In this document: piece by piece, positions 39,701 to 56,700 of the stretch | How positions within the stretch are numbered: the first letter of the stretch is position 1 | How the letters are laid out: the number at the start of each line of letters is the position of its first letter | From: Agelaius tricolor | Taxonomy: Eukaryota > Chordata > Aves > Passeriformes > Icteridae | NCBI GenBank assembly: GCA_023055355.1 | Contig: JALJCS010000002.1 | Location: 7,712,001 to 7,776,000, forward strand | DNA length: 64,000 nt | Direction: 5' to 3' | The notes under the pieces: model-generated | Told to the model about the DNA's origin: nothing | Seen by the model: only the letters and a program-made list of their open reading frames with translations | Database searches by the model: none | Program-made: the position numbers and the translations under genes

Positions 39701-41559
39701 CACACAGAGCCATAAAAATAAGGGCAAGAACACTGCACCCCACAAGCAAAGTAAGTTTCAAAGGAAAGCCCGAGCTGCACGGCATTATTAAGTATGAGCA
39801 AAAGTGGCCAAACACATTTTCTAGTGGCTTTTTCCTCAGACTAGAGAGTTCCCATACCCAGGCAGCTTGGTTTGTGCTTTCTGAGCAAACAGAAGAGTAA
39901 ACCAAACAGCTCAGAAATGAAGCGGGTATCAGCGGCATGTTTCACTTGCTTTTTGGCTCTCTCACTCAATACTGGTTGCTTAGCAATTTTATTTTTTTTA
40001 CTACTCACTGCCAGATGGATTAATGAAAACACATACTTGCATTACTTACAACATTTTTCCTTTATATTTCTTGATACACCAGTACAGTTTCTTTTAATTA
40101 TTTCTTTTTTAAGGAATTCCATTCCCAGGTTTGCAAGTAAAGACCCAAATTATAGAGAGCCAGGGGGAGGGAAGGAACAGAAAGAAGCTAAGTGTAATTA
40201 CCAAATTATTTGGTGGATTGCAGGAAAGAGGTACCTTGAGACTTGCACATCCTCTGGGACTTGTAGCAAAGACAGCATGTCTAGCTCAGCATAGAGATGT
40301 GAGGCACCAGGTGACCTGAAGGTGCCTTGCTCTTAGCTGGTTTATCTATTTATAACTACATGTCATAACATTACCTGAGAGAACACAAGTCAGCACAGTG
40401 TTATTTCAGCAGTCAAATAACCATACACAGCCTTTTTTTATTTACACCTTACAGCGATGCTCTTTCTATTTTCACTTCCAGTTCTTTATAGAGCTGAAAC
40501 CTGGCACTTGGCACAGTCTTCCAGCCTGTGCCCTGCAATGCCACCCAACTTACCCATGGTTTGGCAATTTTTTAGAAGCTGTGATCAGAAAGAAATAATG
40601 ACACGCCATACAATGTAACCAACCGTTCTGCCAGTGGCAAAACCAAACTGCGCATCAGCCATTACCAAGGGTGTAATTGCAGCAGGGATAACAGGAGGGG
40701 GGAGGGGAATCTGTTCCATCCCCAAATGGAGAAGAAAATGCATCTCTGCCATCTCCAACTTTCTGCCAGCTGAAAGGGGGAGGAGGGATGGGAGAGACTG
40801 CAGCAGGGCAAGCAGCAACTCCAAGGCAGTTCTTTTCCCTTTACAGCTGGCAGTGAGCTCACAGGCTCAGCATCAAAGATGTTACACAGTTGGGTCATTT
40901 TGTGTGCTACTGCTGGGACATGAAGGGAGGCTGCAGTACCGCTGGCTACAGATCCTCCCTCATGCTGTTCCCCTTCCCAAATAGAGGAAGTCTGGTTTGG
41001 TGCAGAGAACCAGCAGAAAGAACTTTCTTTTGTTTTTGAGAGCAAGTAAGATCTGGTGTGGTTAGTTTGCTGTTGATAGAGCTCATTAGGAAAGGTCAAA
41101 AAAGGAGGGAAAACAGAGGCCTAGTAGAAAAGAAACAGGATAGTTTCATCATGTACAGGATGAACTGAAGGGGACAGCTTAAATCTCAAGGGAGTCATGA
41201 GGAAGAGGTGGCAGAGAGGAAGGCACAGGAGTGGAGAAAGGGGAAGGAAAGGTCAGGTGGAGAACTGCAGGATGTTCATCCCAGTAACAGGCAGAAGGAG
41301 GTGAATGCAGGGAGCTGGAGGGGTGTTGGTAGGAACCATCAGGCTGTAAACCCATCAAGAGTCCCAAAAGGCAATGCTGAGACAATCGGGGACCTCATGA
41401 AACTAAGCGGACAACGTAGGAGCAAGTTTCCTTGCACTTCTGAGGCACAAACCCATCAGGGGAAGAAGGCAAAGAGCAAGCCAGGGAGAGACTTGCAGAA
41501 CACCAAGGGCAGCATCGCCATGAGGGATGCCAGCACCTGGCGAGGGGGGACAGTGCAGA
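39701..41559. other. Intron-like sequence between the two CpG islands
   Basis: No transposon was recognised. Open frames of up to about 180 residues on both strands near 39246-39938, and of about 145 residues near 40662-41099, show no known domain and overlap one another. I do not call them genes. Base composition becomes GC-richer approaching exon A. Confidence 0.4.
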
Positions 41560-41875
41560 AGCCTTGAGGGGATGCGCCACAACGCTGTGCAGGGCGAGAG
41601 GGCGGCGCTCTGGGACAGGGGAAGCTTCGAGGGGCTGAACGGAGAAGGGCAGCCGGTCCCGGCTCACCCAGGTGGGAGGCGCGGGGCAGGGGGAGCCGGT
41701 CTGCGGTCTGCGGGCCAGGGGAGGCCGGCGAGGTGCGAAGGCGCGGGCAGCGGGGCAGGGCCGGGCGGCGGCGCCCGGGGAGCCCGCGGGCGCAGGCAGG
41801 GGCGGAGGGCGGGGGCGGCCCCTTCCCTCCCTGCTTCCCCCGCCGCCGGTCGCGCCGGGCCGGGCCGCCTCTCAC

Positions 41876-42022
41876 CTGTGTCGAGGTTTAAGGAGATGCG
41901 GGCCTCGGCGAGGTAGGGGGTGTCGCTCTTGGAGCGGACGCGGCGGATGGGTCTGCGGTCGATGTCCTCCTCGGAAGATGCCGCCATTAATGTGGGCACG
42001 GTGAGCAGCGTGGCCCGGCGAG
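41876..42022 (-). CDS. PHACTR1: PHACTR1 internal coding exon, copy A (downstream member, inside a CpG island)
   Basis: Seen: a 147-base segment with an acceptor (gccag, ending at 42023) and a donor (CACAG followed by gtgag, 41875 down to 41871). It has the same length and 1-1 phase as copy B. It encodes [12 protein letters not shown], then [19 protein letters not shown], then [17 protein letters not shown]. This copy is closer than B to the mammalian PHACTR1 residues I remember ([23 protein letters not shown]), so it is probably the orthologue of the canonical exon. GC at third positions is 41 of 48, against 26 of 48 in copy B, in keeping with the surrounding CpG island. The Met codon at 41987-41985 could start a short isoform; it has G at +4 but T at -3, so the start context is only moderate. 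The reading frame stays open upstream of the acceptor to about 42275. That could allow an alternative first exon, but low-complexity GC-rich DNA often lacks stops by chance. Confidence 0.88.
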
Positions 42023-43632
42023 CTGGCGAGGGCGAGCGGCGGCGCGGGGCGGCCGGGCGAGGAGGGGGCGGAGGGGGAGACAGGGGAAGGGAGGAGGGAG
42101 AGAGCCGCGGGAGGGGGAGGGGAGGACGGGGAAGGAGAGAGGGAAAGGGAGACAGGAGCGCAGGGAGGGAGGGGGAGAGACAGGGAAAACCCGTCAAGGA
42201 TCTGCGGACGGGAGCGGCCGCTGCGGCCCTGCCCGCTGCCCCTGCCGAGTCCCGCCCGCCACCGCTGCGGGGCACGGAGCGCTGTCCCCGGCCCCGGCGC
42301 TGCCGGCCCCCGCCCCGGGCAGGGTCCGGCCGAGCGCCTTTCCCACCCCCAGGGGAGGTCCCGGCTCAGGTGCCGAACGCCGCCGATGGGCCTGGCCGGC
42401 AGAGGTACCACCCCGCAGCAAGCCCGGAGCCCCGAATGCTCACTTCTAGCCCAGGGCCTCCGGAACTCACAGCACCGCTTCATTGGGACTTGGTGGGATG
42501 TCTAACGGTGCATGCCTTCACCTCCTTACCCTCGCTCCTTGGGCAAACCCATGGCGTAAAGTGGGATGGTGTGCCACACCTTGGCAGTTTAAAATGCCAA
42601 GGGGACTGAGGAGCCTGCATTGAACGTTTGAAACTGACCAGCCCTCAAAGCCCGGGGCTCACCTTCCTAAGGGCTTCGGCAGGTCTTTGAGAAAAATGTG
42701 ACCATCTGCAAAAACCAGAGACTCCATTCTCCAGCTGCAAACTGGGCTTGGTGTTTTGTGGAATCTCTGTTTCTCTCTTTAGTAATCAGCTCTTTATGTA
42801 GACGTTGTTACCCTGTGGTTTATAGGCTGCCTGCCACATTAGGGCTCCAATTTCGGTTGGTGTAATATAAATAATTAAAAATGTTATTAAAAAGTGGGTA
42901 GCACAAAAGTACTGCATTACTAAAAGTAAAGTTAGACAGTTAAAATATGCACCTAAGAGTGTACTAGCTCATGTAATTTAATTCAGGGCTTTTTAGAAAA
43001 AATACCAAAACCCACTCTGCTTAAAGTCACTAAGCTGTCAGTACTTCTAAAATCTCTTGTGTTGGTCAGCCTCAATGAGAAAGAAAGACCAAGGAAGGAA
43101 TGTTGGATCTCACAACTCTGAAGGCAGTGATAATAACACTAGTTGGTCTGTATTTTGAAGGACAGCTCTCTTATTCATTCCTGCAGCCAAGAATTTTCTA
43201 TTACATGTTTGCCAATTAGTCCTATTGAGGTTTTGGGTTGTGCTGCATTGGCTGTAACATTGGGTTTAGCTCAAGTCTGCTGTTAGCTGTAATCCTTCCA
43301 TAAATGTTCTCAAGAACTTTCATGCTTCTGGATGCCTGGAATGGATAAGATATATTTTGTTTGCAAATCAATTCTATTTTGGTGTGATCTCACTAGCTCA
43401 CCCTGGCTAAACCAGAAAAAAAAGTTTTAGTTAGCACTTGCAGGAGAATTTTGAAAACAATCCCTGTTCATACATATGCAGGTGCTTGTAGTTAGACAGC
43501 CATGGCATCTTTGGATGTCTGGTGAACCACCACATCGCTTGTGAACGAGGAGGTACCATCTGGTCCATCTGCATCTCAAAAAAGAAGTCTTTAATTAACA
43601 TCATATGCTGTTTAGGGAAGGTGTGGTCTTAC
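42023..43632 (-). other. Intron between the two paralogous exons (1610 bases)
   Basis: In transcript orientation it starts with gtaagaccacac and ends with ccctcgccag. The part next to exon A is GC-rich and pyrimidine-rich on the sense strand. The remainder, about 42600-43600, is ordinary AT-rich DNA in which I saw no repeat or further exon. It is long enough that steric hindrance between splice sites cannot by itself force a choice between B and A. Confidence 0.75.
42031..42186 (-). promoter_or_regulatory. GC-rich polypurine (+) / polypyrimidine (sense) tract before exon A, G-quadruplex-prone
   Basis: The + strand has closely spaced runs of three to five G separated by one to five bases, for example around 42061-42100 and 42108-42131. 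Read in transcript direction this is a C/U-rich stretch ending near the exon A acceptor. It could be an extended pyrimidine tract, a template-strand G-quadruplex region, or simply CpG-island low complexity containing GC boxes (ggggcgg around 42036 and 42065). These readings do not exclude one another. Confidence 0.5.
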
Positions 43633-43779
43633 CATTATCAAGGTTGAAGCAGATCCGAGCTTCTTCCAAGTAAGGGGTGTCACTCTTAGACCGGAGCCTT
43701 CTGATGGGTCTCCGGTCTATGTCATCCTCAGAAGTTGCTGTCACCAGAGTGGGCACAGTGAGGAGAGTTGCCCGACGAG
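43633..43779 (-). CDS. PHACTR1: PHACTR1 internal coding exon, copy B (upstream member of a tandem exon pair)
   Basis: Seen: a 147-base open segment with an acceptor (cttcttaccag, ending at 43780) and a donor (G followed by gtaag, 43632 down to 43628). It begins by completing a split codon and ends with one base of the next, so it is phase 1-1. It encodes 48 full codons, starting [12 protein letters not shown], with [19 protein letters not shown] in the middle and ICFNLDN at the end. Known: PHACTR1 binds protein phosphatase 1 at its C-terminus and G-actin through RPEL motifs. This module lies in its N-terminal region before the first RPEL motif. The basic stretch [11 protein letters not shown] resembles a basophilic kinase site and a nuclear-targeting patch (inference). 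It is 81% identical in protein to copy A, about 1.6 kb downstream. Copy A's Met is Val here, its Ala is Glu, and its Ser-Leu is Cys-Phe. GC at third positions is 26 of 48. The gene assignment is from memory of the family; the exon itself is very likely real. Confidence 0.85.
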
Positions 43780-53735: not shown

Positions 53736-56700
53736 TTCAAAATTACTTCTTAGCAACACCCAGGTGTTTGTTGTATTTTAGAGATGGAGGGAAAAAACCC
53801 ATCAAAATCACTCATTGCCCTCAGTGGTTTTTCCCCGATTTTGTGGTGCTTAGTATTTGCTTCTCTAGTTCAATGCAGGAAGCTGTGTTGTGACAAGAGA
53901 GGCTTTCTACAACTGGTACAGATGAAATTGTATCACAACAACTGAGACAGCAGCTAAGCAACACAGCATGTGTTAGGCAGCAGCACCTCAGCTGAGCCAG
54001 AGGTCAGAGGTGGTACTGCTCCCCATTATCCTGGGATGGTGGTATCCTGTGGGTGGATTATATCTTGCTCTGGGAGAATAGCCTCCAGAGGGAAGTCCAA
54101 ACTCTATTGTCCAGACTTTGCATTTGATTAGCAACCAGTGAAATTAATAGTGGAAGAAAAATGGATCCCATTTTCAAAAAACAGGCAGTGTGTAGAAACA
54201 AAAATGGCTGAAGAGCTACTTGGCTCTTACAATTTTCTTGAATTTAATATGGTGTTTAAAGTTTAAGGAAAAAAAACCCTTCTCTCTGAAATTGCAAGTT
54301 TTCTCCAAATATAGAGCTGGTGAGAAAAATGTGAACTGACTTTACCAAAAATATCATCTATGTTGTGAACAAGTCTCAACTACATTAAAGCAGTGGATCT
54401 TGGTTACCCTTCCCCTCTCACCCTGCTGCTGCTCTGTGAGGGCCAGTATTTCACAGGGGATGATGAAGACCAGTGAGAGCTGCTCTGTGCAAACCGGGTG
54501 GGGGACTGCCTCAGGGCCTTCCCAAACCAGTTTTTCCTGAAAAACATCACCTTATTATCCTGTCAGCACTGAGAAGAAAGAGGAGGAAGGGAAAAGACAC
54601 CACAGGCTTACTCAGCAAGCTGCAGGCCATTGCTGTCTCCTCTGTCGTGTCCATTTAGGTTCTGCAACACCAGAACCTGTGTCTTGGCAGCTCTTTTTGC
54701 TCCCGCAGCACATGCAACAGCTCTCACACCTCCTCCTTATCCTCTGAGAGGGCAGATCAACCCCACCATTACTCTTCTTGTAGTCCCTTTTAAAGCCCAT
54801 GCATTTTGAAGGCCCTGTGCCCTCTCAACACTTAAGTATGTTGGTCACTGGCCCCTATCTGGCCATATACATTTTAACTGTACAGTTATACTAGTAATTT
54901 TCTGAGTCAGTGCCAGAGTTTCTTACCTTGGGCTCCTTGACTGTAAAACAGTCTGTGAGCAGACTCGACATCCAAAAAGTAGTCCATTTTGAAGGTGCTT
55001 TGTGTACAATACTCCGGTATGAACGATCAGTCAGATTCCTAGAAAAGATTACAGAGATGTCAGAGAAAAAAGCTGGTGGAAAGTATTGTGTACGCAGTCA
55101 CTAAAGTACTTCATCTGGCATATTAGGGTCAAAGTGTTTTCAAGTCACTATTCATAGAACTTCATAAGCATCCTTTTCTATTTTAGAATGTTTGGTTCAA
55201 AACCTTGTTTTGAAAACAGAAAAGTGCTACTGCAGTATTAACAAGATTCCTTGTATCTTCCTAGTACAATCACCTGTATTCTAGTCACAGTCTCCATTTC
55301 TTAAGACACATATTTGGATTCATCTGCCTGTTACATTTGCCCTTAAAAAGAAAATCAGAAAAGCTCAGGACAGGGACCTCCTTTAGCCAGATTCACAGCC
55401 AGTGCCTCTGAGTAGGCACTACTATAACAGTCTACATTAAAGATTACATTCTTGCCACTTATGCCAAAATGCTGCACTAGAAAGGAAGAGACAATATTCT
55501 GGATACTTCACTCCACCTAAATAGACCAGAAGCCAACCTTGCCTTTCCTCTCTCCTCTTGCTGACCAGAAGTAGCAACAGAACATTCCACCATCAGTTTT
55601 AAAATATGTGGTAAGAGCAATCATTAAGAAATGGTAGGATACTCCTAGCACTGTTTTGTAGCAAAGGTTCATATTTTTGGCATCCTTTTGAATCGTAGAT
55701 CTGCTGTGATCCTGGATTACAACTCTCCAAGCTGTACACTGAATTATGTTTGCCTGTGCCTGGCAGAGTTCCTGGAAAGATATTGTGACCCTTCTCCAGC
55801 TTCATTAGTACCTTCTGCATTTTATTTTACTTTTAAAAACTCACATTAAAAAATCGGGATTTGCCGAGAACACACAACCCTGTTCTCTCACCCACATCAC
55901 AGTTCACCACAGCATGTAATCATAAGCATGCAAACAACTCTGAACAACATGTATTTTAAGACAGACAGACAAAAATACCTCTAGTCCTTTTCCGTGCAAA
56001 CCTAACAAAAAGGTTTGAGACGGGGAGTCTGATTCTTGCTTCAAGTAATTCCTTCAATTTTGTTGTGAAAAGTCACGAAACTAGGTTTCCAAAGCTTTAC
56101 CTTTTTCCTTTGATTCAGTTCTCATCAATCAACATGCAGTCCTTTTAAAATTCAGAAGTCTGTCCTGATGAGAAAACTTTTACATTCCACAGCAATTCAC
56201 TTTACTGTAGCATTCCCAAACCAGAAATGATACTTACTGCAGAGTATCAAGGGCTGTCTGGCAGTGGTGTAAGCTCCAGTAGTTTCAAGGAGGGTTTCTT
56301 TGATCTTACTAAATGTCCCCAGTGTAAGCAAACAATTTTGATTGTTTGATTGGAACTCTGATGAATAATGCATAACGTCAACTGGACTTCCTTTATCAGA
56401 TAAAAATGGCCAGGAGATGTTGTTACTTAGCAACAGGAGGTGACACTATGTTCATCTCCCCCACTCCCCCTCGCCCTTCGTACTAAAAAATTAAGCCCCT
56501 GGTTTTGATTTGATAAAAACTTTCCCAAGGAAAAAAAAAAATCTGTATCAAGTTTCCTTAAGAATTTGTTTTACATGTCGATCTTCCTTGTTGCATCTCA
56601 GATTCTGAGATATTTTTAATGTTTCATAATGGTTAAATTTAAACATAACATTATGTTTTATCTAATAGTTTGCTTTCACTAACGAAAATATCTGCTTATT

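Follow-up and report, generated by a model that had tools for sequence, protein, structure and literature searches.

The DNA analysed here, referred to as the window, is a stretch of 64,000 nucleotides from Agelaius tricolor (contig JALJCS010000002.1, positions 7,712,001 to 7,776,000). It carries exons of PHACTR1, the gene of an actin and phosphatase regulator, on its minus strand, and the features relevant to the discussion below are the following.

54927-55038, minus strand: upstream PHACTR1 exon with the start codon; its coding part, 54927-54987, encodes MDYFLDVESAHRLFYSQGAQ and ends with the first base of a split Ala codon; the intron begins GTAAGA
43633-43779, minus strand: exon B, 147 nt, phase 1-1, 49 residues counting the split codon; marker residues L, E and C; apparently a bird-specific copy
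42023-43632, minus strand: intron between B and A, 1,610 nt, GT-AG
41876-42022, minus strand: exon A, 147 nt, phase 1-1; marker residues V, A and S; apparently the ancestral PHACTR1 exon
42021-42365, minus strand: open stretch directly 5' of exon A, 115 codons in frame, no in-frame ATG
41251-42750, no strand: CpG island around exon A, GC 0.62-0.76 and CpG observed/expected 0.53-0.91 in 500-nt windows; candidate internal promoter

A search of the window with a human query did not reveal the next coding exon downstream of A. The available part of PMC5994109 gives the human intron between exons 5 and 6 as 207,613 bp.

Exons B and A are adjacent and homologous, share the same phase and have AG and GT borders, with reading frame and splice sites intact in the window. 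The coordinates, lengths, phase, borders and similarity given in the preliminary description were all reproduced: the exons are identical at 109 of 147 bases and at 39 of 48 full codons on the residue level, with different codons used for 22 of the 39 common residues. The best ungapped match of exon B elsewhere in the window reaches 60 of 147 bases on the minus strand (mean 36, standard deviation 5.3) and 59 on the plus strand, so that the identity between B and A lies far beyond chance. When the flanks of the two exons were compared in register, no residual intron homology around the duplicates was found. The tandem duplication of a PHACTR1 exon proposed earlier is real and both copies are conserved, with pS 0.66 and pN 0.12 (Nei-Gojobori) between them. 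The large number of different codons had also been taken to mean that the duplication is old. This argument is confounded by base composition, because GC3 is 0.85 in exon A, which is inside a CpG island, and 0.54 in exon B, which is outside it; among the 22 synonymous codon differences the A codon is richer in GC in 16, the B codon in one, and five are equal. Dating by synonymous differences was therefore rejected, and the age of the duplication rests on its distribution among species.

To describe this distribution, 162 proteins were fetched from a protein database clustered at 90% identity, where isoforms may be hidden; for two sets of matches, 120 of 307 and 120 of 912 were listed. They comprise 54 bird-named proteins (46 species) and 108 that are non-bird or unnamed. 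In 44 of the 46 bird species the annotated PHACTR1 protein includes exon B; the 46 are not an unbiased sample, since the queries were drawn from B. Of the 44, 43 are recognized by the L-E-C markers and the remaining one, Numenius, has RFC. The second copy, suspected earlier to be lineage-specific or unannotated, is therefore present in public models, and it is lineage-specific, to birds, among the proteins examined. The birds covered are ostrich, chicken, quail, ducks, geese, pigeons, swifts, cranes, shorebirds, parrots and songbirds, and Struthio (ostrich), Gallus (chicken), Anas, Apus, Grus and Corvus are among those that have B. In the other two species the fetched model starts inside A (Gavia stellata) or is an A-only isoform (Phaethornis). 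All 108 non-bird or unnamed proteins have a single A-like core (V-A-S in 105, V-S-S in two, V-T-S in one), and none of these 108 contains exon B. A single A-like module occurs in crocodilian, turtle, squamate, mammal, caecilian, ray-finned fish and shark proteins, and the expectation of only one module in mammalian PHACTR1 agrees with the mammalian proteins examined. In two bird-like unnamed records (P0065 and P0095) the models surround exon A only. Exon A, which shares 42 of 48 residues with the bonobo protein, is the orthologue of the exon present once in other vertebrates. Judged by these sequences, A is the ancestral exon and B the added copy.

With B found in 44 of the 46 species of birds, among them ostrich and chicken, a single origin on the bird stem is most likely. 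All 12 B modules sampled in a small, unrooted module tree form one clade (support 0.975). An older B, already present in the ancestor of sauropsids or of amniotes, would have to have been lost in crocodilians, turtles and squamates; such a history is compatible with a tree that, being unrooted, cannot firmly place the B branch. It would also fit the absence of B outside birds, which, for crocodilians too, is known from annotated proteins. Ostrich B differs by 7 residues from lizard A, by 6-7 from bird A and by 8 from gharial A, so these distances alone do not date the duplication. We nevertheless regard an origin before birds as very doubtful, because it requires at least three independent losses. 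A still earlier, pre-amniote origin is argued against by the motif IDRR, in which B has the I of amniotes (V in one gecko) instead of the T or A seen in the fish, caecilian and shark rows. A single origin of B on the bird stem is the reading followed below.

Both copies are conserved. Exon B varies at only seven of 48 positions (12, 13, 14, 15, 17, 18 and 48) and is invariant at positions 19-47 among 42 bird species, a count that omits Numenius (RFC for RIC, I to F at position 42) and Porphyrio, the model of which starts inside B. Exon A varies at three positions in 40 bird species, and its core is largely invariant across 23 aligned proteins, shark included. Residue 44 of the A module is changed from F to L (ISLNL) in the window and in four of the 40 bird species, namely Taeniopygia, Lonchura, Ammospiza and Onychostruthus. 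The inclusion of B is known here from gene models, and B could in principle be the leftover of an old exon, no longer expressed, which gene predictors retain only for its coding-like appearance. Such a silent relic would not keep positions 19-47 unchanged from ostrich to songbirds, nor would intact frame and splice sites be expected of it in this genome, and we consider this reading very improbable.

The arrangement of B and A had been called the classic layout of mutually exclusive exons, in which each mRNA would contain one of the two, for example according to tissue. The equal length and phase of the exons and their close spacing are what such a system would have. However, 47 bird proteins from 39 species, out of the 162 fetched, contain B followed by A in series; these are gene models, thus predictions, and prediction software might string two convincing coding exons together where the cell would not. 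NCBI gene models usually make use of RNA-seq data. A further tandem model, in Strigops, has a garbled A. Full-length models in which B alone is joined to the downstream exon were found only for Charadrius and Nipponia among the 120 of 912 matches listed, and there is an A-only hummingbird model (P0071). The Columba and Irena B-only records are odd or partial. The two full-length B-only models fit mutual exclusion, but they may derive from draft assemblies that lack the GC-rich exon A. Three usual ways of enforcing exclusion do not apply to this pair. The intron of 1,610 nt is too long for steric exclusion, the donors (ATG/GTAAGA and CAG/GTGAGA) are both U2-like, which rules out a clash between U2 and U12 sites, and 147 nt corresponds to 49 codons, so that double inclusion preserves the frame. 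Mutually exclusive use of B and A thus appears quite improbable. Inclusion of both exons in series is what the gene models indicate and what we would expect in the transcripts. The acceptor tract of A has T at two of 17 positions and that of B at 10 of 17, and with so T-poor a tract A is perhaps the weaker of the two as an internal exon.

Exon A might also serve as a first exon. The CpG island around it contains nine GC boxes and no TATAAA, and exon A itself has an in-frame Met (MAASSEED). In mouse PHACTR1 isoform 2 (P0139; Q2M3X8-) and in P0140 a different, Leu/Ser/Pro-rich N-terminus runs into A; the 115-codon open stretch in the window is a possible counterpart of this alternative N-terminus. 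Six models start at a Met inside A (Gavia, two from Rhinatrema, Scleropages, Amia and Stegostoma). In view of the CpG island and the mouse isoform that enters A from another N-terminus, A may start its own transcripts, and it could then act both as first and as internal exon. No CpG island is present at B, which would therefore be an internal exon only. If A does start its own transcripts, the choice of promoter alone could give a protein with one or with two modules.

Three further observations concern the surroundings of the pair. In a Corvus model (P0008) the N-terminus is lengthened by 26 residues, partly by use of the 5' part of the upstream exon (54976-55038, minus strand); the frame has a stop in the window, so an extension of this type is not open in this genome. 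The segment 27044-27145 (minus strand) is similar to an additional exon, in frame and about 35 residues long, that PHACTR1 models of chicken, gull, auk, flamingo, a snowfinch and others include after A and before the next coding exon. Its frame contains a stop here (SLWA*KPNLPNIC), and the full exon therefore looks broken in this genome. In mammal proteins such as P0096 an internal nine-residue repeat, LDVESAHRL-LDVESAQRF, occurs in the exon that precedes the module (residues 1-35). The sequence LDVESA occurs twice in 43 of the 162 fetched proteins, the named ones of which are all from mammals, and once in 84; this is a second, separate small duplication beside the module.

The residues of the module point to a possible function. 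Each copy contains RRAT and RSKSDTPYL, with basophilic sites at RRAT and RSKS. The module serines correspond to S67 and S78 of the bonobo protein, and we take their equivalents to be listed phosphosites of human PHACTR1. Exon B keeps the equivalent of S67 and has a cysteine in place of S78 in all 52 B-bearing proteins (RIS to RIC). The invariant core of B, together with this exchange, points to the residues that may be important. According to the available text of PMC7599070, the substrate core of PHACTR1/PP1 consists of S/T-x(2-3)-hydrophobic-L after the phosphosite. The sequence SDTPYL in both A and B fits this core, which is a loose motif: the zebra finch protein has six matches, compared to a mean of 7.5 in shuffled sequences. 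Only the two module sites of the zebra finch protein also have R or K at -3, and at least two such sites occur in 29% of the shuffles. IRSp53 pS455, a PHACTR1/PP1 substrate site, is described in the same text as belonging to a set of sites by which 14-3-3 is recruited, which hints at a possible 14-3-3 role for the PHACTR1 module. Pfam searches returned no family for either module at E values up to 10, and a search of solved structures with B as the query yielded the molecule FI18195p1 twice, each time weakly (E 1.2 and 2). In an AlphaFold model the block covering both modules has a pLDDT of 26-40, which is weak evidence for disorder since the whole model, made from 23 sequences, is poor (mean pLDDT 43); the module is probably a disordered stretch.

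In view of the above, we consider it probable that the PHACTR1 exon was duplicated in tandem on the bird stem lineage, with B added before A, and that birds thereby obtained a two-module N-terminus that is made via the upstream promoter, and a single module otherwise. In transcripts from the upstream promoter B would be included as an extra symmetric exon before A, giving the order SQGAQ-B-A-EEVERL. One module would be encoded where B is skipped or where transcription begins at A, in the CpG island. Double inclusion would place a doubled candidate phospho-switch near the N-terminus, in which the B module would differ by the loss of the A-type serine (RIS to RIC). A more far-reaching possibility is that the upstream promoter is a neuronal one that yields two modules and the CpG-island promoter at A yields one, and that the two RxRSKpSDTPYL sites could form a bivalent clamp of the 14-3-3 type that is removed by PHACTR1/PP1 itself. 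In that case a graded response would have been converted to a cooperative switch in birds only. This proposal is speculative and we think it rather unlikely as a whole.

The duplication can be compared with three known systems. The mammalian long (brain) isoform of PHACTR1 is the product of the same gene, and the bonobo match of the window's exon A was given above. This isoform contains the module and differs in having it once in the proteins examined, to which birds add copy B. The human long transcript, with its start codon in exon 4, is described in the available parts of two papers as confined to brain among the samples tested (PMC5994109; PMC4917897), and we infer that A corresponds to the human coding exon after exon 4. 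In TGFBR2, also a conserved signalling protein, the coding exons of the ligand-binding domain were likewise duplicated in tandem in particular lineages, namely in chicken and horse. According to PMC13187141, the two-copy form is predominant and single-copy forms arise by splicing at a marginal rate. TGFBR2 differs in that an exon pair encoding a folded receptor domain is duplicated, with RNA-seq support, whereas PHACTR1 has one duplicated exon, a probably disordered motif and evidence from gene models. Mutually exclusive tandem exons, as described in the accessible text of PMC9741552 and PMC9013439, are likewise adjacent, homologous and equal in length and phase, but B and A of PHACTR1 are annotated together in one transcript. 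On the basis of the gene models, B is grouped with cases like TGFBR2, in which tandemly duplicated exons are retained in series.

No paper on the PHACTR1 exon duplication of birds was found in the open-licence literature among the matches listed. The available parts of PMC9746689, PMC7350591, PMC5453576 and PMC8629116 contain nothing on the module, and no function is stated for it in the portions of the PHACTR1 literature examined. As far as these sources extend, PHACTR1 is studied in relation to coronary disease (PMC5994109) and infantile epilepsy (PMC8629116). The predicted PHACTR1 of birds contains a conserved phosphorylation-type motif twice, and that of the other vertebrates examined contains it once. 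Birds thus offer a natural experiment in which a PHACTR1 module was doubled and both copies were retained through the whole radiation, which suggests that conclusions drawn from the chicken protein's N-terminus may not carry over directly to mammals.
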